From Natrinema salinisoli (lineage in GTDB: Archaea; Halobacteriota; Halobacteria; Halobacteriales; Natrialbaceae): 64,000 nucleotides of DNA. Below the pieces are notes generated by a model, which was given only the letters and a program-made list of their open reading frames with translations, had not been told where the DNA came from and made no database searches. The first letter of the stretch is position 1. Each line of letters begins with the position of its first letter. The stretch covers positions 3,162,001 to 3,226,000 of the forward strand of contig NZ_CP084469.1 in assembly GCF_020405205.1 (NCBI RefSeq), given 5' to 3'. Both the position numbers and the translations under genes were made by a program. Shown here in pieces: positions 44,632 through 54,875 of the stretch.

Positions 44632-46257
44632 TCAGACTCGGTTGCCGAGGCGTCTAGTGACTCCCCGAAGGGACTGCGTTACCTCCGCCGGGTGCGGCAG
44701 TCCGAGCCGGTACCGGACCCGATCCTGTCGCTTGAGCGGGTCGAACACCGCGGGCTCTCTGAGCTCCCAGACCTGCGCCCGGCCCCGTCCACCGTGTCGG
44801 TCGAGGATCGCGTTCGCCGCGCGGCGGCCGGCCTCGTTGGCCGACTCCATCGACGCCAGATCGGCGTTCGTTCGGACGTAGTCGCTCGCCAGGGTGAGGT
44901 TTCCCACGCCGACGTCGGCCGGCGGCCGCTTCCGGAGCGACCCCACGGTGTTGATCAACAGCGGCGATCGGTTTTCGACTCCGGCATCCGTTTCGACGAT
45001 CGAGGGATCGAGGAACCAGTCGACCAGCATGTCGTCCCGCAGCCGCCGGTCGGGCCCGTTCAGGTGGGTCTTCAGCTGCGCCCAGATCTCCTCGGCGATC
45101 TCTTCACGGGTACATTCCCTGGCCGGCTTTTCGTGGTAGAGTCCCGGCGTGTCCCAGTCGGAGGCGATAACTGAGAGAACGCCCTCGACCTCGTCGGGAC
45201 CGCGGCCCTCGAGGTCGTAGCCCGTCCAGAACTGGCGCTGGGAGATCGAAGTCAGCGCCCAGGGGGCGTCGGCGTAGACCTGGTGGCCGCGGCTCAGTTC
45301 GACGTCGTCGGTGAGGTAGAACTGGATCCCGTTCATCCAGGCGGTATCGAGCCGATCGATCCGCCCCAGTTCCGGCGCTTCCCGGCGTAGCTCCGGCGTG
45401 ACGAACTCGGGGGCGACCTCGACGGGGACGGCCAGCACGAACTCGTCGGCCGCGACCGTTCGTCCGTCGGCCAGCTCGGCGTCGGTCACGCGTCGCCCGT
45501 CGAACGCGAGGCCCCGAACAGGGGTGTTCGGTCGGAACTCGACGCCCAGCGTCTCGAGATGGCGGACCCACGGATCGATCCAGGCCTCGTTCGTCGGGGC
45601 GTTCAGGACCCGTTCGGTCGGCTCGGTCGGATCGAGCTGGCCGAACAGCAACTGCAGGTAGATGGTGCCGACCGTCCGTGCGCTCCCGACCTGCGGCCGG
45701 AGCGCGACGAGCGCCTGCGTCGCGTACGCGAGCCGGTCGCGAAACTCCTGCGAACGGTTCTCGGCGTCGATGAACTCCCACCAGGAGACGTCGTCGAGCT
45801 CCTCCTCGCGACGCTCATCGCAGGCGGTCAGCAGGTACAGCAGTCGCTCGAGCAGGAATCGGACGTCACTGCGGGGCAGGTCCTCGGCGAAGGCCGGACG
45901 GAGCGCCTCGAGCCAGCCCCGAACCGAGTCGGGCGTGCGGGTCTCCGCGATCCGCCCCGAATCCGCGGTGCTCGCGATCAGCGTCGCTTCGGTCTCGACG
46001 AGGTTGTCCGCGACGGTTCCGGCACCGTCGGGGATCCGCTCCATGGTATCGACGACGTGGCGGTAGAACGCCGGAAAGAACCGGAACCCGTGTTCGCCGT
46101 GGAGCGCGGCCGGATCGTCCGCGATCGGCATCGATCGGGCCTTCCCGCCGAAGCGGTCGTTCGCCTCGAAGACGGTCACGTCGTGCCCGCGCTCGGCGAG
46201 TTCGTGCGCCGCCGTGAGGCCGCCGATTCCGCCACCGAGTACGGCAACGTCGGTCAT
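44632..46257 (-). CDS. FAD-dependent amine oxidase/phytoene desaturase-like protein
   Basis: 541 residues from ATG 46257. The dinucleotide motif is DVAVLGGGIGGLTAAHELAERGHDVTVFE followed by GGKARSMP and HGEHGFRFFPAFYRHV, the pattern of the flavin amine oxidase / hydroxysqualene dehydroxylase / carotenoid desaturase clan. A C-terminal FAD region (NLTLASDYVRTNADLASMESANEAGRRA) is present. The substrate may be an isoprenoid. A minus-strand TATA GTTATGT 27 bases upstream makes the mRNA leaderless. Convergent arrangement with nothing nearby helps little in assigning the role. Confidence 0.85.
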   Translation of the reverse strand: MTDVAVLGGGIGGLTAAHELAERGHDVTVFEANDRFGGKARSMPIADDPAALHGEHGFRFFPAFYRHVVDTMERIPDGAGTVADNLVETEATLIASTADSGRIAETRTPDSVRGWLEALRPAFAEDLPRSDVRFLLERLLYLLTACDERREEELDDVSWWEFIDAENRSQEFRDRLAYATQALVALRPQVGSARTVGTIYLQLLFGQLDPTEPTERVLNAPTNEAWIDPWVRHLETLGVEFRPNTPVRGLAFDGRRVTDAELADGRTVAADEFVLAVPVEVAPEFVTPELRREAPELGRIDRLDTAWMNGIQFYLTDDVELSRGHQVYADAPWALTSISQRQFWTGYDLEGRGPDEVEGVLSVIASDWDTPGLYHEKPARECTREEIAEEIWAQLKTHLNGPDRRLRDDMLVDWFLDPSIVETDAGVENRSPLLINTVGSLRKRPPADVGVGNLTLASDYVRTNADLASMESANEAGRRAANAILDRHGGRGRAQVWELREPAVFDPLKRQDRVRYRLGLPHPAEVTQSLRGVTRRLGNRV

Positions 46258-46349
46258 TAGCCGTTTTGGGGCACGGATCGACATAACGGGCGTCCCTAAC
46301 TACGAATCCCTCGAGATGGAAAACGATCGTCCCCGGCCATGCGCGGTCG

Positions 46350-46985
46350 TCAGTCGTCGCCGGCGAGGTGCTCGAGGACCGCGTCGGTCGTCACGACGTC
46401 GCCGTACTTGGCGTCGATGTCGAGGAGGTTCGCCCTGTGTGGCCCCTCGGCTCTGTCGCCGACCGCGTCGGCCGGGACGATCGTGCGGTAGCCGTGCTGG
46501 AGGCTGTCGACCGCCGTCGCGCGGACGCAGCCGCTGGTCGTGACGCCGACGATGACGAGAGTGTCCACGCGGCTGGTGGTCAGCTCCGACTGGAGATCGG
46601 TCCCGAAGAAAGCGCTGGCGTACTTCTTCAGGATCACGCGTTCGTCGTCGAGGGGCGCGATCCGATCGTCCACCTCGACGCGGTCGGTCCCGAGGCGGAG
46701 CTCTTTGAGCGCGGGGACCTTCTCGACGAACATGCCCGCGTCGCCGTAGGATTCCTCGAACGCGACGGTCGTGAAGTACCGCGGCAAGTCGCGTTCTCGG
46801 AACGCCTCGAGCAGCCGCGCCGTCTGCTCGAGGACGTCGTCGACGTCCGACCCGAGATTCGAGTCCGGGTCGGTGAAGGCGTTGATCAGGTCGATGACGA
46901 GCAGCGCCGGGCGCTCTCCGATGCCGACGCTCTCGCCGAACTCTCGGTCGTCGTAGCGGTCCTCGGTGTCGTTGATCCAGTCCAT
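46350..46985 (-). CDS. isochorismatase-family amidohydrolase
   Basis: 211 residues. The cysteine hydrolase triad is visible: Asp in LLVIDLINAFTD, Lys in VILKKYASAFFGTDL, Cys in VGVTTSGCVRATAVDSL. This fold covers nicotinamidase, N-carbamoylsarcosine amidase and related C-N hydrolases; the sequence style (ending YGDVVTTDAVLEHL) is closest to N-carbamoylsarcosine amidohydrolase-like proteins, by inference. It is third in the hyuA-hyuB transcript, 43 bases after hyuB. The context suggests it acts on the ring-opened product of HyuAB. Confidence 0.87.
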   Translation of the reverse strand: MDWINDTEDRYDDREFGESVGIGERPALLVIDLINAFTDPDSNLGSDVDDVLEQTARLLEAFRERDLPRYFTTVAFEESYGDAGMFVEKVPALKELRLGTDRVEVDDRIAPLDDERVILKKYASAFFGTDLQSELTTSRVDTLVIVGVTTSGCVRATAVDSLQHGYRTIVPADAVGDRAEGPHRANLLDIDAKYGDVVTTDAVLEHLAGDD

Positions 46986-47028
46986 AATGTGCGTCTGTGG
47001 GGTAGCTACGCGAACGATCGGGTGCGGT

Positions 47029-48897
47029 TCAGTTGTGCCGATCGTCGAACTCGTCGCGCTCGGCGGCGATCCGGTCGGCGAGTTCGTCGTCGTCCGGCAG
47101 CGGTCCGTAGTCGAACTCCGCGAGGTCCTCGCGCGTTTCGCGCTGGTCCGCCCGGCGCTCTTCCGTCGCGGCCTCGTCGAGGGTCCCGTCGTCACCGACG
47201 ACGACGCCGTACTCCTCGCGGGCGGCGTCGGTCGAGATGAGCCCCTGCCGGATCTCCTCGGCGACGAGTTCCGGGTCCCGCTCGAGCGGGTCCCCCAGTC
47301 CGCCGCCGCCGGCGGTTCGGAAGACGAGTTTGTCGCCGGCCGCAACGGCGACGTTCTCGACCTTGGAGGGGAGTTCCTCCTCGGTCCCGTCGGTCCGGAG
47401 GAGCTTCTTCTCGCTGGTCTGGGCGTGTTTTCCGCCGTCGACGCCCCACGGGTACGTGTGCGCCCGGTCGTCCTGGAAGGTGATCGCGCCGTCCTCCTCG
47501 AAGGTGTAGACCTTCGTGATGCCGTGGCCGCCGCGGAACTCCCCGGCACCGCCGGTGTCGGTCCGGGTGCTGTACTCGTCGATCGTGAGCGGGTAGTAGG
47601 CCTCTTGGTACTCGGCGGGAACGGTCCGGAACAGCGGCCACCAGGAGTGGCCGTCGAGGCCGTCGCCGCCCGGGCGGGCGGGGATGCCACCGTAGAGGAT
47701 CTCGAGCATCTGGAAGTCGTTGCCCTCGGAGTCGGTGCCCGCGTAGACCAGATTCGGCGAGGTCCCGTAGCTGCCGGCGACGCTGAAGTCGTCGATGAGC
47801 TTCGAGAAGGTGGCCTGCAGGACGTCGAACTGGCGGGCCATCAGCGGCAGGCGGTTGCCCAGTGCGGCCGGGAACTCCGGCTGGACGACGGTCCCCTCGG
47901 GCAGGTTGACCTCGAAGAGGTCGTAGTAGCCGTCGTTGAACGTCAGCAGCGGGTCGAAGGCCATGATGAGGAAGACCCCCGTGAACATCTTGAACATCTT
48001 CTCGTTCAGGAGGAAGTTCACCGTCCCGGGAACCTGATCGTCGGTCCCCTCCCAGTCGAGGTAGACGGTGTCGCCCTCGCGGTAGATCTCGAGGTGGAGC
48101 TTGATCGGCCCGTTGCCCATCCCGTCGTCGTCGACGTAGTCCTCGAAGGTGTAGCGTTCGCCTTCGGGCACGAACTCGCGGATGAGATTGATCATGCCGT
48201 CGCGAGTGCGGTCGAGAATGGCGTCACAGCCCTCGAGGTAGGTCTCCTTTCCGAAGCGATCACAGAGTTCCTGCACGCGGGATTCGGCGACGGCCGTGCC
48301 GGCCGCGAGCGCTTTGATGTCTGCCTCGGCGTGCTCGGGGAGGCGCGTGTTGTGCGCGAACGTTTCGAGGAGTTCGCTGTCGAACTCGCCGCCCTTGTAG
48401 AGCTTGACCGGCGGAAGGCGCATCCCCTCCTCGAAGACGGTCGTCGCCTGGACGGGCATGCTGCCGGGGGTCTTCCCGCCGACGTCCATCAGGTTCCCCC
48501 ACTGGCTGCCGAAGCCGACGAGGTCGCCCTCGTAGAAGATCGGCCGGAGCAACAGCATGTCCGGCGTGTGCGAGACCGCGCCGGCGCACATGTAGGGGTC
48601 GTTGGTGGCGATGACGTCGCCCTCGTTCAGCTCGTCCCAGCCGAAGGGGGCGTTCTCGATAATCGTGTCGATGGCGCTGCCGAACTGGCCCATGACCATC
48701 CGTCCCTGCGGGTCGGCGATCAGGGGGAACTGGTCTGACTGCTCACGGATGACCGGACTGATGGCGGTCGTCTCGAGAACGCGGTCCATCTCGTGGCGCG
48801 TGTTCGAGAGCGTGTTCTCGATGATGTCGAGGGTCGTCGCGTCGATGTCGTGGTCCCCGACGAAGTCGGGGGTGGCGTCGGCTGCGTGCTGGCTCAT
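47029..48897 (-). CDS. hyuB: hydantoinase B / oxoprolinase family subunit
   Basis: 622 residues. Motifs typical of HyuB: DIIENTLSNTRHEMDRVLETTAISPVIREQSDQF, GDVIATNDPYMCAGAVSHTPDM, GFGSQWGNLMDVGG, GNGPIKLHL and the Gly-rich FRTAGGGGLGDPLERDP at the C-terminus. The family comprises ATP-dependent N-methylhydantoinase, 5-oxoprolinase and acetone/acetophenone carboxylase beta subunits. ATGA overlap with hyuA. The polar C-terminal 90 residues are haloarchaeal style. Confidence 0.93.
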   Translation of the reverse strand: MSQHAADATPDFVGDHDIDATTLDIIENTLSNTRHEMDRVLETTAISPVIREQSDQFPLIADPQGRMVMGQFGSAIDTIIENAPFGWDELNEGDVIATNDPYMCAGAVSHTPDMLLLRPIFYEGDLVGFGSQWGNLMDVGGKTPGSMPVQATTVFEEGMRLPPVKLYKGGEFDSELLETFAHNTRLPEHAEADIKALAAGTAVAESRVQELCDRFGKETYLEGCDAILDRTRDGMINLIREFVPEGERYTFEDYVDDDGMGNGPIKLHLEIYREGDTVYLDWEGTDDQVPGTVNFLLNEKMFKMFTGVFLIMAFDPLLTFNDGYYDLFEVNLPEGTVVQPEFPAALGNRLPLMARQFDVLQATFSKLIDDFSVAGSYGTSPNLVYAGTDSEGNDFQMLEILYGGIPARPGGDGLDGHSWWPLFRTVPAEYQEAYYPLTIDEYSTRTDTGGAGEFRGGHGITKVYTFEEDGAITFQDDRAHTYPWGVDGGKHAQTSEKKLLRTDGTEEELPSKVENVAVAAGDKLVFRTAGGGGLGDPLERDPELVAEEIRQGLISTDAAREEYGVVVGDDGTLDEAATEERRADQRETREDLAEFDYGPLPDDDELADRIAAERDEFDDRHN

Positions 48898-50957
48898 TGT
48901 GAATCACTCCGCGTTATTTCCAGGTTCGCGTACCGATCGACCGTCGCCGTGTGGTCTGGCTGGACGACGACCGTCGAGTCGTCGTCGGTGACGATCGCCG
49001 GCCCGGCGATCGCGTTGCCGGGTCGCATCTGTGCGCGGTCGTAGATCGGCGTCTCGTGGTAGCTGTCGTCGAAGAAGACCTCCTGTGTGCCGACTTCCGC
49101 CCCGCTCGCGTCCTCGCCGCCGAGGTCGCTCTCCTCTAACGTGACGCCCTGGATCGTTCCCTTGCCGATGACTCGGAGGTTCGCGATCTCGAGGGGCGCG
49201 TCGAGGGAGAAGCCGAAGCGCTGGTCGTGGCGCGACTCGAAGTCGTCTTTGATCTCCGCGATGCCCTCCTCGGTCCGGAGGTTCGAGAGGTCGATCGGGA
49301 TCGACATCTGGACGTCCTGGCGGTAGTACCGGCAGTCGGCGTAGTACTCGAAGGCGTGGTTCGCCTCGCCGACGCCCTCCGAGACGAGCCAGTCGGTCGC
49401 CTCCGCTCGCAGGTCCTGGTAGGCCTCGTACACTTCCTCGCCGTCGACGTCCTGATCCGTCTTCAGGTAGGTCTCGGAGAACTCGTTTTGCACGTCGCTC
49501 GTCAGGAAGCCGAAGGCGCTCATGACGCCCGGTCCCGGCGGGACGATCAGCGGGTAGGCGTCCATCACGTCCGCCAGCGCGTTCGCGTGCATCGGGCCGG
49601 CACCGCCGAACGCGACGAGCCCGAAGTCCCGCGGATCGTAGCCGCGCTCGACGGAGACGACCCGGAGCGCGCCGTACATGTTCTCGTTGACGATGTCGAG
49701 GATCGCCTGAGCGGCCTCCTCGACCGTGCTGTCGCGCTCGTCGGCGACCGTCCGGATCGCGTCACGGGCCGCCTCGCGATCGAGTTCCATGCTCCCGCCG
49801 AGCCGGACGTTCGACGGAATGCGGCCGAGCACGACGTTCGCGTCGGTCACCGTCGGCTCCTCGCCGCCCTGTCCGTAGCAGGCCGGCCCCGGATCGGCCC
49901 CGGCGCTCTCGGGCCCGACCTGGAGCGATCCCGACAGTTGGACGCGAGCGATCGAGCCCCCGCCCGCGCCGACCGTGTTGACGTCGACGGCTCGAGACTT
50001 GAACTCACGGTAGCCGACCTTCGTCTGGCGCGTCGTCTCGGGTTTGCCGTCCTCGACCAGCGAGACGTCCGTCGAGGTGCCGCCCATATCGAGCGTGAGC
50101 ACGTCGGGAACGCCCTTCTTCTCCGCGATGGTCGCCGCGCCGACGACGCCGCCGGACGGCCCCGACAGGGCGAGTTCCACCGGCCGGTGTTTCGCGGCGT
50201 CGGAGCTCATCAGCCCGCCGTCCGAGCGCACGACGTTCATCTTCGCGGTCGAGCCGGCCGCCTCGAGCGAGTCGTCGAGGTCGTCGAGGTAGTCGATCAC
50301 TTGCGGCCGCGCGTAGTCGTTGATGACTGTCGTCAGCGTCCGCTCGTACTCGCCGTACTCCGGAACGATCTCCGCGGAGATCGACACCGGGAGATCCGGA
50401 CACTCGTCCTGAATGATGTCCCGGACCTGCCGTTCGTGGGCCGGATTCAGATACGAGTTCAGCAGGGCGACGGTCAGCGACTCGACGCCCGAGTCGGCGA
50501 GCTCCCGGACCGCCGCTCGGACCGCTTCTTCGTCGATCGGTTCCTGCTCCGATCCGTCGGGCGACGTGATCCGGCCGCCGACGCTTCGCGTATCGACGAG
50601 ATCGGCCAGGGGCGTCGGTTTCTCCATGTCCATCCACCCGTAGAGCGGCCCGGGCGTCCACGCCCGCGCCAGATGGAGGACGTCCTCGTGGCCCTCGCTG
50701 GTGATCAGTCCGACTCGGGAGCCGGTCTCCTCGAGCAGCATGTTCGTCACGACGGTCGTCCCGTGAAACAACAGGTTCAGTTCGCCGACGGACGTGTCGG
50801 CCTTGTCGACGGCCTCCTCGATCCCGTTGATCACGCCCTCCGACGGGTTCGCCGGCGTGGAGAGCACCTTGTCGATCGTGAGTTCGCGGGTGTCCTCGTC
50901 GAAGACGATGACGTCCGTGAACGTCCCACCCACGTCCACTCCTAGGTTGTGTGCCAT
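48894..50957 (-). CDS. hyuA: hydantoinase A / oxoprolinase family subunit
   Basis: 687 residues from ATG 50957 (MAHNLGVDVGGTFTDVIVFD), the ASKHA-type ATP-binding subunit. Other motifs: LLFHGTTVVTNMLLE, SGPSGGVVGAATIAEKKG, LTLDMGGTSTDVSLVEDG, DVNTVGAGGGSIARV, GPACYGQGGEEPTVTDANVVLGR, and FGGAGPMHANALAD. These are complete, so ATP-dependent amide-ring opening or carboxylation is expected together with HyuB. First gene of a three-gene transcript. The long upstream frame to 51233 is not coding. Confidence 0.94.
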   Translation of the reverse strand: MAHNLGVDVGGTFTDVIVFDEDTRELTIDKVLSTPANPSEGVINGIEEAVDKADTSVGELNLLFHGTTVVTNMLLEETGSRVGLITSEGHEDVLHLARAWTPGPLYGWMDMEKPTPLADLVDTRSVGGRITSPDGSEQEPIDEEAVRAAVRELADSGVESLTVALLNSYLNPAHERQVRDIIQDECPDLPVSISAEIVPEYGEYERTLTTVINDYARPQVIDYLDDLDDSLEAAGSTAKMNVVRSDGGLMSSDAAKHRPVELALSGPSGGVVGAATIAEKKGVPDVLTLDMGGTSTDVSLVEDGKPETTRQTKVGYREFKSRAVDVNTVGAGGGSIARVQLSGSLQVGPESAGADPGPACYGQGGEEPTVTDANVVLGRIPSNVRLGGSMELDREAARDAIRTVADERDSTVEEAAQAILDIVNENMYGALRVVSVERGYDPRDFGLVAFGGAGPMHANALADVMDAYPLIVPPGPGVMSAFGFLTSDVQNEFSETYLKTDQDVDGEEVYEAYQDLRAEATDWLVSEGVGEANHAFEYYADCRYYRQDVQMSIPIDLSNLRTEEGIAEIKDDFESRHDQRFGFSLDAPLEIANLRVIGKGTIQGVTLEESDLGGEDASGAEVGTQEVFFDDSYHETPIYDRAQMRPGNAIAGPAIVTDDDSTVVVQPDHTATVDRYANLEITRSDSQ

Positions 50958-51010
50958 TTGGTATCGTACAGGTATCTCCACCGTAGCCGTTCGAGTAAGC
51001 GTTCTCCCAA

Positions 51011-51040
51011 CCAGTGGGGGGCGTTTATATACTTCCGTCG
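51011..51040 (-). promoter_or_regulatory. hyuA promoter element (TATA plus CCACTGG)
   Basis: Read on the minus strand, AAGTATATAAACGCCC is followed by CCCCACTGG. The same 30-base design appears in the promoter of the divergent CoA-transferase gene at 51152-51181. A leader of about 40 bases to hyuA is predicted. Confidence 0.65.
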
Positions 51041-51151
51041 GGCCGAGTCGACACCGGGGGCCGATTCTCGGACGCGGTACGCGTCCGGTGGGTCCGCGTT
51101 GTAGCGCTGACTCTCGTCTCGACGCTTCGTCGCATCCCGGTCGGAGCCCCA

Positions 51152-51181
51152 CCGTCCGAGTATATAAACGGCCTACACTGG
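51152..51181 (+). promoter_or_regulatory. CoA-transferase promoter element (TATA plus CACTGG)
   Basis: CCGTCCGAGTATATAAACGG is followed by CCTACACTGG. It matches the element at 51011-51040 in inverted orientation in about 22 of 30 positions, including the TATA core and the CACTGG end. The predicted leader to the ATG at 51224 is about 30 bases. Confidence 0.65.
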
Positions 51182-51223
51182 GTGGACCAACTGTCTTCGG
51201 TCGAGGGGGAGTGGTACAGGGAA

Positions 51224-52441
51224 ATGGCAGCACGAGAACGAACCGGTCCCCTCGACGGACTCCGGGTCATCGACATGTCCGGCATGATAAGCGGTGCCTT
51301 CGCGACGACGATGATGGGCGACTTCGGCGCGGACGTCGTGATGGTCGAACACCCCGAGACCGGCGACCCGATCCGCGAGTGGCCCCAGAAGACCGAGGAG
51401 GGGGAATCGCTGGCCTGGAAGTCGCTGGGCCGCAACAAGCGTTGTATCACGCTCGATCTCGGCTCCGAGCGCGGGCGCGAGATCGCCCTCCTGTTGATCG
51501 AGGACGCTGACGTCGTCTTCGAGAACTTCCGCCCGGGAACGATGGAACGGTGGGGACTCGGCCCCGACGACGTCCACGCGGTCAACGAGGAGGCGATCAT
51601 GGTCCGCCTCTCGGGGTACGGCCAGACGGGGCCGAAGTCCCAGAAGCCCGGCTTCGGAACCATTGCAGAGGGCATCTCCGGTTGGGCGCACGCGAACGGC
51701 TTCCCGGACAGCGAGCCGCTCCTTCCGCCGATCAGTCTCGCGGACCTGACGGCGGCCCAGTTCGCGATGCAGGCCACGATGATGGCGATCTTCGAGCGCG
51801 ACGTGGGCCGCGGCGGGAGCGGCGAGGGTCAGGTGATCGACGTCTCCCTCATCGAACCGCTCTGGCGGCTCTTCTTCGGCGAGGTCGAGGCGTACGACCG
51901 GATGGACCACGTCCGCGAACGGACCGGTAACCAGCACCCGAGCACGGCCCCGCGTAACATCTACGAGACCGCCGACGGCTACATGACGCTGTCCGCGTCG
52001 AATCAGAAGATCTTCGAGCGCGTCGCCGCGGCAATCGACAAGCCCGAACTGATCGAGGATCCTCGCTTCGACGACAACGAAGCCCGCGTCGAGAACAGCG
52101 ACCCGCTCAACGCGGCGATCGAGGAGTGGACGAGCCAACGGACGACCGAGGAGGCGACCGAGATCCTCGAGGCCCACGACGCCATCGTCGGTCCCGTTTA
52201 CGACATGGCCGACATCTTCGCGGACGAACATTTTCAGGCTCGAGACAGCATTATCGAGGTCGAGGACCCCGACGTGGGATCGATCAAGACTTTCGCTCCC
52301 ATCCCGAAGTTCTCACGGACGCCCGGCGAGGTCGAGTTCCTCGGGCCGGGACACGGCGAGCACAACGAGGACGTCTATCGGGGCGAACTCGGGATGACCG
52401 CCGAGGAGTACACGGAACTGGAAGAGAAGGGGATCATATAG
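51224..52441 (+). CDS. class III CoA-transferase (CaiB/BaiF family)
   Basis: 405 residues from ATG 51224. Motifs: LDGLRVIDMSGMISGAFATT, MMGDFGADVVMVEHPETGDP, RNKRCITLDLGSERGRE, FENFRPGTMERWGLGPDDV, RLSGYGQTGP and SLADLTAAQFAMQ with the catalytic Asp. It moves CoA between acids, so a CoA thioester is part of this pathway. The HMGL-like gene begins right at its stop codon (52441/52442). Divergent from hyuA-hyuB. Confidence 0.93.
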   Translation: MAARERTGPLDGLRVIDMSGMISGAFATTMMGDFGADVVMVEHPETGDPIREWPQKTEEGESLAWKSLGRNKRCITLDLGSERGREIALLLIEDADVVFENFRPGTMERWGLGPDDVHAVNEEAIMVRLSGYGQTGPKSQKPGFGTIAEGISGWAHANGFPDSEPLLPPISLADLTAAQFAMQATMMAIFERDVGRGGSGEGQVIDVSLIEPLWRLFFGEVEAYDRMDHVRERTGNQHPSTAPRNIYETADGYMTLSASNQKIFERVAAAIDKPELIEDPRFDDNEARVENSDPLNAAIEEWTSQRTTEEATEILEAHDAIVGPVYDMADIFADEHFQARDSIIEVEDPDVGSIKTFAPIPKFSRTPGEVEFLGPGHGEHNEDVYRGELGMTAEEYTELEEKGII

Positions 52442-53533
52442 ATGCAGCTGACCGACGTGACGCTCCGCGAAGGCGACCAGATGCCGGGTCGCGAGTACAG
52501 CGCGGAGCAAAAGATCGAGTGCGTCCGCGCGCTCGACGACCTCGGCGTTCCGTTCGTCCAGCCCGCTTTTCCCGCGACGGGTGAGAAGGACCAGACCGTC
52601 GTCTCCGAACTGAGCGGCACGACCGACGCGGAGATCGTCGCTCTGGCCAGAGCGCTCGAGCGCGACATCGACGCCGCGGTCGACGCGGGCGCCGACGTGG
52701 TCGAGACGTTCGTATCGGTCTCGGATCGACACCTCGAGCACCTCCTCGACGCCTCTCGCGAGGAGATGCTGACGATGCTGACCGAGGCGGTCGACTACAT
52801 CGTCGACCGGGGCGGCACACCGCACGTCACGCTCGCGGACGCGTTTCGCACCGACCACGACGACCTGGTCGAGGTGTTCGAAGCGATCCCGAACGTGCCG
52901 TTCGTCACCCTCGCGGACTCCGTCGGTGCGCGGACGCCGGCGACCGTCGGATCGTCGCTCGATCGGCTCGGCGACGACGTCGACCTCTCCCGCGTCGGCG
53001 TCCACTTCCACGACGACATGGGCTGTGGGACGGCCAACGCCCTGACGGCCTATCAGGCCGGCGTCGCCAAGGCCGACGTGAGCGTCGCGTCCCTCGGCGA
53101 ACGAGCGGGTAACAGTTCGCTCGAGGAGGTCGTCGTCGCCTGCGCCGTCGACCTGGGGGACGACCTCGGTATCGAGACGGACGAACTCGTTCCCGTCTGC
53201 CGGGACGTGCTCGACACGCTCGGTGAAGAGTACGGCGACCGGAAGGCAATCCTCGGCGAGGAGATCTCGGAACACGAATCGGGGATCCACACCGCGGCGA
53301 TGCTCAGCGATCCCGCAACGCTCGAGCCGTTCGATCCCGCGGCCTTCGGCGGCGAACGTCGGCTCGTGTTCGGCAAATCGACCGGAAAGGACGGCGCGCG
53401 CAAACTCCTTGAGCGGGCGGGCATCGAGGCCGACGACGCGACCGTCTCGGCGTTCAAATCGGCGCTGGCGGACCGCGGCCCGCTCGAGCTGGACGAGGCC
53501 GTCGCCCTCGCGAAGCGGGAGTTCGGGGACTGA
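52442..53533 (+). CDS. HMGL-like / isopropylmalate synthase-type enzyme
   Basis: 363 residues. The barrel motifs are LTDVTLREGDQMPGREYS (Arg and Asp of the active site), VSDRHLEHLLDASREEML, VTLADSVGARTPATV, VGVHFHDDMGCGTANAL (metal-binding His pair) and SLGERAGNSSLEEVV. HESGIHTAAML resembles the post-barrel part of LeuA/NifV. The C-terminal helical domain is short and the allosteric LeuA domain is absent. It is probably an acyl-CoA condensing enzyme or a lyase; homocitrate or re-citrate type specificity is unknown. Immediately follows the CoA-transferase. Confidence 0.85.
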   Translation: MQLTDVTLREGDQMPGREYSAEQKIECVRALDDLGVPFVQPAFPATGEKDQTVVSELSGTTDAEIVALARALERDIDAAVDAGADVVETFVSVSDRHLEHLLDASREEMLTMLTEAVDYIVDRGGTPHVTLADAFRTDHDDLVEVFEAIPNVPFVTLADSVGARTPATVGSSLDRLGDDVDLSRVGVHFHDDMGCGTANALTAYQAGVAKADVSVASLGERAGNSSLEEVVVACAVDLGDDLGIETDELVPVCRDVLDTLGEEYGDRKAILGEEISEHESGIHTAAMLSDPATLEPFDPAAFGGERRLVFGKSTGKDGARKLLERAGIEADDATVSAFKSALADRGPLELDEAVALAKREFGD

Positions 53534-53631
53534 TCGACGCGGATCCGCCGTCCGAGCCAACACTGGTCGGGTGTATTTACGGAACCGTTATGTCGTGGTG
53601 GTCTGTAGCATACGGACAACGACTGGCGACG

Positions 53632-54273
53632 ATGTTTCAAGCCGAAATCCACCTCCAACAGGAGAAAGCCTGCGTCCTCGACGACTTCGCGGATCACTTC
53701 GGTACGTCCTTCGACGTCAACATCGAGGAACTCCACGACCACCTCGTGACGTTTACCATCCGGATGGAGGAGTCACGCGAGGAGTTCCTCGAGTTCTTCA
53801 GGAACGCCAAGCAGGTCGAGCACGTCGAACGCCTCGACGAGTCGACCTACCTGATCACGAAGACCTCGTGTGGCGCGTACTCGGCGGTCGATCGGAACCA
53901 CGGCGTCCTCCGTCGACAGAGCCGGGTCCGCGGCGATCGCCGCGTCTACACCGTCCTGTTCTTCCGCCGGGAGGACCTGCGGGCCATGATCGACGATTTC
54001 AACCGGATCGGGACCGTCACGCTGGGCAAACTCACCGAGTTCGATCGATCGAAATCGATGCTCACCGACCGGCAACTCGAGGTCGTCACGCGCGCCCTCG
54101 AGGAGGGGTACTTCGAGTGGCCGCGGACGATCGACAGCGAGGAGCTCGCCGACGAGCTGGGGATTAGCCGAACCACGATGCTCGAGCACCTCCGGAAGGC
54201 GCAGTCGAAGCTGCTGACCAGTGCCATCGAGGAGAACGACCGATCGAATCCGATGGAACGGATCGAACGGTAG
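53632..54273 (+). CDS. HTH-10 (bacterio-opsin-activator-like) regulator
   Basis: 213 residues from ATG 53632 (MFQAEIHLQQEKACVLDDFA); an in-frame ATG at 53590 lies only 19 bases from a TATA-like TGTATTTAC and so is less likely. The N-terminal half is the Bat-type sensor-like domain. The C-terminal HTH is SMLTDRQLEVVTRALEEGYF, then DSEELADELGISRTTMLEHLRKAQSKLL. It stands directly after the catabolic genes and is a good candidate for their pathway-specific regulator. Confidence 0.85.
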   Translation: MFQAEIHLQQEKACVLDDFADHFGTSFDVNIEELHDHLVTFTIRMEESREEFLEFFRNAKQVEHVERLDESTYLITKTSCGAYSAVDRNHGVLRRQSRVRGDRRVYTVLFFRREDLRAMIDDFNRIGTVTLGKLTEFDRSKSMLTDRQLEVVTRALEEGYFEWPRTIDSEELADELGISRTTMLEHLRKAQSKLLTSAIEENDRSNPMERIER

Positions 54274-54317: not shown

Positions 54318-54875
54318 ATGCGACTGTTCGTCAGCGTCGACCTCCCCGACGATCTCGCCGACGCGGTCGCCGACCTGCAAGCCGAGTTCGACGGTGCGAG
54401 CGGGCTCAATGTCACCGATCCCGAGCAGGCCCACGTGACGATGAAGTTCCTCGGCGAGGTAGACGAGGACCGAGTACCCGACCTCGAGCGGGAACTCGCG
54501 GCTGCCGTCGACGATGCCGCCGTCGAACCCTTCACCGCTCGATACGGCGGCTTGGGCGTCTTCCCGTCGCTCGACTACATCAGCGTCGTCTGGCTGGGCG
54601 TCGAAGACGGCGGCGCGGAACTCACTCGGCTCCACGAAGCCATCGAGGATCGGACGACGGCGATGGGATTCGAGGCCGAGGATCACGACTTCACGCCCCA
54701 CGTCACGCTCGCGCGAATGGAACACGCCGGCGGGAAGGACTTGGTCCAGGAACTCGTACAGGAGCGCGACCCGACAATCGGCGAGACTCGAGTCGACGAG
54801 GTTCGGCTGACCGAGAGCACCCTCACGGACGAGGGGCCGGTGTATTCGACGGTCGAGTCGTTCCCGCTCGAGTGA
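54318..54875 (+). CDS. thpR: RNA 2',3'-cyclic phosphodiesterase
   Basis: 185 residues of the 2H phosphoesterase superfamily. The two HxTx motifs are AHVTMKFLGEV (His near residue 40) and PHVTLARMEHAGG (near residue 128). MRLFVSVDLPDDLADAV is the family start. The enzyme opens 2',3'-cyclic phosphates and was once called 2'-5' RNA ligase. TTCAATAC about 30 bases upstream is a weak TATA candidate. Not obviously linked to the neighbours. Confidence 0.92.
   Translation: MRLFVSVDLPDDLADAVADLQAEFDGASGLNVTDPEQAHVTMKFLGEVDEDRVPDLERELAAAVDDAAVEPFTARYGGLGVFPSLDYISVVWLGVEDGGAELTRLHEAIEDRTTAMGFEAEDHDFTPHVTLARMEHAGGKDLVQELVQERDPTIGETRVDEVRLTESTLTDEGPVYSTVESFPLE

Follow-up and report, generated by a model that had tools for sequence, protein, structure and literature searches.

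The window analyzed here, a 64,000-nucleotide stretch of the Natrinema salinisoli genome (contig NZ_CP084469.1, positions 3,162,001 to 3,226,000), carries a compact cluster of six genes arranged around a divergent promoter region (Table 1). On one strand, hyuA and hyuB, encoding the subunits of a predicted ATP-dependent ring-opening hydrolase, are followed by a gene for an isochorismatase-fold cysteine amidase (ISO); on the other lie genes for a class III CoA-transferase, a LeuA-like barrel enzyme (the barrel), and an HTH-10 regulator. Gene calls and Pfam matches, all six far above cut-off, agree with the places and strands that a first-pass annotation of the DNA had given for these genes, and the HyuA and HyuB domains are nearly full length. 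hyuA and hyuB overlap by 4 bases, and the ATG of the barrel gene immediately follows the stop codon of the CoA-transferase gene, a spacing as would be expected for two transcripts. All of the predicted catalytic residues that we checked are kept except for one metal ligand of HyuB, so that the six genes appear to be intact. Natrinema relatives show 96% and 88% protein identity. For the HTH-10 gene, an alternative upstream ATG is possible at 53590.

Table 1. The six genes, their promoter region, and the two promoter elements, in positions of the window
Feature	Position	Strand	Basis
ISO, isochorismatase-fold cysteine amidase, 211 aa	46350-46985	-	Pfam Isochorismatase 129 bits
hyuB, predicted metal-bearing subunit of ATP-dependent ring-opening hydrolase, 622 aa	47029-48897	-	Pfam Hydantoinase_B 459 bits
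hyuA, ATP-binding subunit, 687 aa	48894-50957	-	Pfam Hydantoinase_A 316 bits
Divergent promoter region, hyuA/CoA-transferase gene	50958-51223		Alignment of four Natrinema-type loci
TATA box and operator, hyuA-hyuB-ISO transcript	51001-51029	-	One mismatch to operator pattern
TATA box and operator, CoA-transferase-barrel-regulator transcript	51163-51191	+	Zero mismatches to operator pattern
Class III CoA-transferase, 405 aa	51224-52441	+	Pfam CoA_transf_3 393 bits
LeuA/homocitrate-synthase-like TIM barrel, 363 aa	52442-53533	+	Pfam HMGL-like 197 bits, HCS_D2 51 bits
HTH-10 (Bat-like) regulator	53632-54273	+	Pfam HTH_10 (PF04967) 82 bits, cut-off 23

A search of archaeal genomes for the six-gene neighborhood, as proposed with the first-pass annotation, found it in several Halobacteriales families and in three gene orders (relatives were retrieved with the barrel protein, and their genes were called with a simple caller based on amino acid composition). 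The divergent layout holds for the window and for Natrinema but not generally, as most relatives outside this genus run in one direction, hyuA-hyuB-ISO-CoA-transferase-barrel-HTH-10, sometimes with one or two intervening genes. The third order, CoA-transferase-barrel-HTH-10-hyuA-hyuB-ISO, is that of Halomarina (L040) and of locus L054. Within one set of 243 Halobacteriales genomes, where E-value and identity thresholds define presence, the genomes with a HyuA orthologue and those with an ISO orthologue are the same 21. A CoA-transferase of at least 80% identity is present in 13 of these 21 versus 1 of the 222 others (Fisher P = 2e-15, a value that takes genomes as independent and ignores relatedness), and the distribution is patchy, reaching, for example, 2 of the 13 members of the window's own genus.

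An 85% inverted repeat (arms 51007-51033 and 51159-51185) lies in the 266 bases that separate hyuA from the CoA-transferase gene. Each arm overlaps one of two blocks, consisting of a TATA-like box and the operator CCAAC-N4-GTTGG, that mirror each other and are the conserved parts of the intergenic region when four Natrinema-type loci are aligned. The same combination lies about 60 bases upstream of hyuA across genera. Within 2 mismatches, the operator is found in 26 of 26 hyuA promoters versus 47 of 959 controls (5%), taken from upstream of other genes at these loci, a comparison that measures enrichment and not independent discovery, as the motif had been recognized in these promoters before counting. 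It also precedes 10 of 19 CoA-transferase genes, and the upstream regions that lack it belong mostly to transcript-internal genes or to over-long start calls; the CoA-transferase copy of the window itself falls inside such a call. In genome G040, in which the two halves of the cluster lie on different contigs, the operator is present at both promoters (L043 and L105). A scan of the own genome, using a pattern derived from these same promoters, matched only the two divergent promoters at 0 to 1 mismatch, the reversed control giving none; inspected for a transporter, it yielded one 2-mismatch site (L149) with no evident target gene. Since the operator is shared by both promoters, the unlinked G040 loci included, the two halves very probably constitute one local regulon. 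An HTH-10 homologue is kept beside hyuA or the CoA-transferase gene in relatives, and this association suggests that the HTH-10 protein binds the operator and is the probable local regulator of both promoters.

In all seven HyuAB-ISO genomes without CoA-transferase and barrel, the ISO gene is followed by a gene for a protein of 312 to 315 amino acids (~79 to 96% mutual identity), here called X, a member of the isocitrate lyase/PEP mutase superfamily. By profile it is nearest to methylisocitrate lyase (220 bits), and 2,3-dimethylmalate lyase and petal death protein are among its relatives of solved structure; the lyases known from this superfamily cleave malate-type 2-hydroxy dicarboxylates. 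Overall, 13 of the 21 HyuAB-ISO genomes have CoA-transferase and barrel only, 7 have X only, 1 (G040) has both, and none has neither (G144 being counted as a CoA-transferase genome at 67% identity); X is absent from all 13 of the first group. In most X-type clusters, which are without CoA-transferase and barrel, an HTH-10 homologue adjoins hyuA. Likewise, 41 of 44 CoA-transferase loci from 37 genomes adjoin a carbon-carbon lyase and 3 adjoin none: by a count made by hand, about 25 have a LeuA-like barrel, 15 a true HMG-CoA lyase, and 1 a CitE/RipC-like lyase (L109), while an automated count took in 40 loci, the difference arising mainly from omitted sets. Most simply, CoA-transferase plus barrel and X would be alternative routes to cleave the same kind of acid, and it is on this ground that we read the barrel as a lyase.

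X is also encountered in other settings. In two loci (L152:6146-7093 of G164 and L153:9766-10713 of G156), it has an apparent 3' end of an ISO gene just upstream, which looks like what a deletion left of an earlier HyuAB-ISO-X operon. An orphan X of 86% identity (L111:9001-9948) adjoins an Orc1/Cdc6 gene on a Haloterrigena salifodinae plasmid, with no HyuAB or ISO nearby. A Natribaculum plasmid (L124) and a related genome (L146) combine X (65%) with distant HyuAB (29 to 38%) and ISO (43 to 44%) and represent a further variant of the combination.

Could the two halves nevertheless serve independent functions, the one salvaging nitrogen from rings and amides and the other using an imported hydroxy acid, with only a neighborhood and a regulator in common? 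HyuAB-ISO is found without CoA-transferase and barrel; conversely, HyuAB is missing from G167, which has CoA-transferase and barrel, and transporters take its place beside many related pairs. The uptake systems at such loci are exchangeable (TctABC, two kinds of ABC transporter, and an SSS symporter; L052, L056-L059, L061-L063, and L065-L076), and at some of them the barrel stands with a second CoA-transferase type. Transporter-linked pairs are, however, to be expected if cells are also able to take up the acid. Independent functions would moreover sit poorly with an operator common to both halves even when they are unlinked, with the complementarity with X, with genes that stay together in three arrangements, and with the parallel assemblies in bacteria described below, and we consider them very improbable. 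The genome comparison by which the independence of the halves was to be judged has accordingly found one unit: in view of the conserved linkage, the shared operator, and the complementary replacement of CoA-transferase plus barrel by X, a chance neighborhood of two halves is rejected.

Interchange extends to the ring-opening step. Fourteen haloarchaeal clusters in the genome sample and one on a Halorubrum plasmid combine a dihydropyrimidinase-family cyclic amidohydrolase, which occupies the place of HyuAB, with a CoA-transferase, an HMG-CoA lyase, and LeuC; ISO is present in all but one, LeuD in all but one, and usually there are also a flavin oxidoreductase and an LLM enzyme. The set seen in many haloarchaea (L125 and L127-L140), with flavin oxidoreductase, LLM enzyme, ISO, dihydropyrimidinase-like enzyme, CoA-transferase, HMG-CoA lyase, and LeuCD, seems to be a more complete form of this type of pathway. 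In bacteria, for which plasmid records were surveyed, a Geobacillus plasmid carries ISO-HyuA-HyuB-CoA-transferase-HMGL-LeuC-LeuD, an Acidiphilium plasmid carries an HMGL gene adjoining CoA-transferase-HyuA-HyuB-ISO, and a Rubrobacter plasmid carries CoA-transferase-HyuA-HyuB-ISO. Given the identities to the window proteins (56, 61, 52, and 39% for HyuA, HyuB, ISO, and CoA-transferase of Rubrobacter and 39 to 49% for the Geobacillus and Acidiphilium proteins), these sets are old or repeated associations.

With respect to the first step, HyuA has the ATP motifs DxGGTxTD, DxGGT, and GxxPGP (Asp8, Asp290, and Pro356 kept in 35 to 36 of 36 homologues), and its closest solved relative, at 485 bits, carries the name N-methylhydantoinase. 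HyuB retains Asp55, His110, and Asp113 of the metal site, and the second His is replaced by Asn135 in 30 of 38 homologues; in the solved chain that bears the name N-methylhydantoinase, Gln occupies this position. The Asp-His-Asp-His tetrad described for CapB, the metal-bearing caprolactamase subunit, and for the carboxylases (PMC8453981) is therefore incomplete, with Asn135 as the fourth ligand, and from sequence we file the pair as a HyuAB-like hydrolase, not as CapAB. In the literature, a gamma subunit marks both types of ketone carboxylase, and two-gene hydAB sets are hydrolases (PMC5214803). The window has such a two-gene pair, as is typical of ATP-dependent hydantoinase/oxoprolinase, and no gamma-subunit gene lies between or adjoins hyuA, hyuB, and ISO. 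The predicted function is ATP-dependent ring hydrolysis of a cyclic amide.

The first-pass annotation had offered as one of two models that a carboxylase route gives an acid, which the CoA-transferase activates and the barrel condenses or splits; with HyuAB as a ketone carboxylase, the acid would be a keto acid. Its second half, a CoA-transferase feeding a carbon-carbon enzyme, is retained here. As to the first half, HyuA and HyuB do belong to one superfamily with acetone and acetophenone carboxylases, but the NCBIfam equivalogs score 346, 233, and 142 bits versus cut-offs of 1500, 1250, and 1500, and the amidase would have no role in the route. In view of the gene content, the profile scores, and the Asn in the metal site, a ketone carboxylase is rejected, and we consider a carboxylating pathway very improbable.

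The amidase narrows down the possible rings. Asp32, Lys120, and Cys153 of the Asp-Lys-Cys triad and Arg178 of ISO are conserved over 54 homologues; the closest solved relative is named N-carbamoylsarcosine amidohydrolase (E 6e-56), as are plasmid genes whose products are ~48 to 51% identical. Arg178 was considered as a discriminator between carbamoylsarcosine and maleamate activity and dropped, as this Arg is common to solved amidases of several names. An opened lactam leaves no amide for ISO, while an imide would give a half-amide and a hydantoin an N-carbamoyl acid; therefore, only imides and hydantoins need an amidase, and the predicted substrate of ISO is the half-amide (or N-carbamoyl) product of HyuAB.

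Regarding the later steps, the catalytic Asp174 of the CoA-transferase is conserved in 75 of 77 homologues. Its nearest solved relative is succinate-hydroxymethylglutarate CoA-transferase (E 2.5e-56), and it reaches the cut-off of none of the named class III subfamilies searched (mesaconate, glutarate, formyl, oxalate, and carnitine; best score 223 bits versus an equivalog cut-off of 700). The barrel had been described as an HMGL/LeuA-type enzyme. A barrel of this kind is indeed present, but it scores higher with the isopropylmalate/homocitrate synthase branch (274 bits at best) than with HMG-CoA lyase (PRK05692, 56 bits with a listed cut-off of 246), without reaching the cut-off of 517 bits for isopropylmalate, homocitrate, or citramalate synthase. 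In an AlphaFold model (pLDDT 79), the closest solved folds are likewise homocitrate/isopropylmalate-type synthases. The Glu of the FSxEDAxR motif is replaced by Ala, and the family has Ala, Val, Ile, Leu, or Met here. This loss was set aside as proof of lyase action, since Met likewise stands in place of the Glu in a LeuA-type paralogue encoded by the same genome (L002).

Conceivably, then, the barrel is a true citramalate- or homocitrate-like synthase that uses acyl-CoA supplied by the CoA-transferase, in a biosynthetic or anaplerotic cluster. Its sequence and fold place it with such enzymes, and RefSeq labels several of its relatives citramalate synthase (H31 and H34-H39). Yet true HMG-CoA lyases and the CitE/RipC-like lyase hold the same place beside related CoA-transferases, X replaces CoA-transferase plus barrel in HyuAB clusters, the C-terminal regulatory domain of LeuA is missing, and related pairs are linked to uptake systems. 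We regard a synthase as quite unlikely: the simplest account is an enzyme of the synthase branch by sequence and fold that functions as a lyase, and we propose that it is a 2-alkylmalyl-CoA lyase. The neighborhoods of the relatives labeled citramalate synthase suggest a catabolic enzyme instead, and the label is probably wrong. A solved HMG-CoA lyase whose title lists CoA and 3-methylmalate (6nds) suggests that the HMG-CoA lyase fold is able to hold acids of this type.

Taken together, we judge it slightly more probable than an even chance that the six genes encode one coregulated catabolic pathway of ring opening, deamidation, CoA activation, and carbon-carbon cleavage. We infer that HyuAB, with ATP, would open a five- or six-membered N-heterocycle, for which a cyclic imide is the best fit, such as a succinimide or maleimide bearing alkyl or hydroxy groups. 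ISO would strip off the remaining amide as ammonia to give a malate-type dicarboxylic acid (2-hydroxy and probably 2-alkyl), either directly or once an enzyme encoded elsewhere has hydrated the product. The CoA-transferase would turn this acid into its CoA ester, and the barrel may split the ester, in the reverse of citramalate/isopropylmalate synthesis, into a 2-oxoacid and acetyl- or propionyl-CoA. The HTH-10 protein would control both promoters through the shared operator. LeuCD proteins are hydratases of maleate-type acids, and the presence of LeuCD, HMGL, CitE, and X consistently indicates dicarboxylates of the maleate/malate type. Such acids would arise from an imide but not from a simple hydantoin, and we therefore rank an imide first as substrate and a ureide second. 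What the sequences show directly is the gene content and integrity, the linkage, the shared operator, and the replacements; the reactions, the substrate, and the operator-binding protein are predictions.

Besides the barrel's place in the synthase branch, the citramalate synthase labels, and the CoA-transferase-barrel pairs without HyuAB, two points weigh against this catabolic pathway. One is that the six-gene set of the window includes no hydratase or oxidoreductase, so that one must suppose either an already hydroxylated substrate or the help of an enzyme encoded outside the set. The other is that the solved proteins nearest to HyuA, HyuB, and ISO are named N-methylhydantoinase and N-carbamoylsarcosine amidohydrolase, which would favor a ureide. 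HyuAB might accordingly open a substituted hydantoin or cyclic ureide to an N-carbamoyl acid, ISO would decarbamoylate it, and CoA-transferase and barrel would process the skeleton after steps encoded elsewhere. The ISO identities to plasmid N-carbamoylsarcosine amidohydrolases agree with this, as does the dihydropyrimidinase/D-hydantoinase family of the enzyme that substitutes for HyuAB in some clusters. However, an amino acid product would be an unusual substrate for the downstream enzymes, a linking sarcosine oxidase or aminotransferase was not seen in the clusters examined, and LeuCD, HMGL, and X indicate diacids of the maleate/malate type. We thus hold a ureide to be unlikely, though far from negligible. 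The other model of the first-pass annotation, an N-methylhydantoin-type route, stands in that HyuAB feeds an isochorismatase-fold amidase; the N-methylhydantoin route itself is unsupported, because sarcosine gives the CoA-transferase, a LeuCD hydratase, and a malate-type lyase nothing to act on.

Outside the set, the neighbors of individual clusters, inspected by eye (a LivFGHM-type transporter, an enoyl-CoA hydratase, and a TIM-barrel amidohydrolase; L035, L036, and L047), are too variable to name the substrate. In the window, the region downstream of ISO on the same strand (44632-46284) encodes an FAD-dependent protein of amine-oxidase fold, with a weak best match to the hydroxysqualene dehydroxylase HpnE; it is conserved in Natrinema loci and is probably unrelated to the cluster. 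The next plus-strand gene, at 54318, encodes an RNA 2',3'-cyclic phosphodiesterase and is unrelated. Elsewhere, hyuA of the J07HX64 assembly is split over two frames (L037:3963-6019), and the CoA-transferase gene of G099 (G099:C61:42553-43698) has two in-frame stops, each reflecting decay or an assembly error.

As to a natural substrate, chlorophyll breakdown in leaves and in lake sediments is reported to yield maleimides and hematinic acid (PMC7318184). Such substrates therefore exist in nature, but no result ties the cluster to them. That it degrades substituted maleimides from chlorophyll or heme breakdown (methyl-, methyl-ethyl-, or methyl-vinyl-maleimide or hematinic acid), by opening the imide, releasing ammonia, and splitting the alkylmalate so formed with an enzyme of the LeuA family that works in reverse, as a lyase of CoA esters, is a speculation to which we give little credence.

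More generally, our analysis points to a conserved but patchily distributed pathway with interchangeable ring-opening enzymes and carbon-carbon lyases. Each kind of enzyme is already known. Our search of the open-access literature found no description of the assembled route and nothing relevant on the gene combination or on imide degradation, and the pathway seems to be undescribed there, its parts being annotated separately. If the proposal is true, it offers a defined set in which to test for enzymes that act on cyclic imides or ureides, as well as an example of a LeuA-family enzyme that serves as a catabolic lyase, and it would correct metabolic reconstructions in which such barrels count toward citramalate or leucine biosynthesis. 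The Geobacillus, Acidiphilium, and Rubrobacter assemblies make the pathway testable beyond halophiles.

Several known systems resemble parts of the cluster. The 2,3-dimethylmalate branch of nicotinate fermentation uses a LeuCD-type hydratase, a PrpF-type protein, and a lyase of the isocitrate lyase superfamily, and genes of these three kinds lie close to one another at locus L112; that branch has no HyuAB/amidase step, and the window has CoA-transferase and barrel instead. The isopropylmalate, homocitrate, and citramalate synthases share with the barrel the fold, the HxH metal site, and the GERAGN and HESGIH motifs, from which it differs in falling below all cut-offs, in the replaced Glu, in the missing regulatory domain, and in its link to a CoA-transferase. 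N-Methylhydantoin degradation, for instance in Clostridium sp. FS41, couples the ATP-dependent N-methylhydantoinase HyuAB to N-carbamoylsarcosine amidohydrolase (PMC4417704) and is thus alike in joining HyuAB to an isochorismatase-fold cysteine amidase, but the known route is without CoA-transferase or carbon-carbon lyase, for which sarcosine is unsuitable. Caprolactamase CapAB (PMC8453981) shares the HyuAB architecture, the ATP motifs, and three of four metal ligands; His124 of CapB corresponds to Asn135 of HyuB, the window proteins score 537 and 227 bits versus cut-offs of 1000, and the enzyme acts on a lactam, so that no amidase partner is needed there. In itaconate/citramalate degradation (PMC12290011), a CoA-transferase activates a branched C5 diacid, and a hydratase and citramalyl-CoA lyase lead to carbon-carbon cleavage; the lyase of the window is LeuA-like and not CitE-like, and the window would add prior ring opening and deamidation. 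Finally, the first-pass annotation had stated that the gene combination fits no single pathway known to it. The anaerobic indoleacetate degradation operon (iaa) of Aromatoleum (PMC8360864, PMC8453981) softens this claim, since a ring hydrolase of the HyuAB type and a CoA-transferase are already found together there. The operon does so without an amidase or a LeuA/HMGL lyase and proceeds via a mutase and a dehydrogenase.

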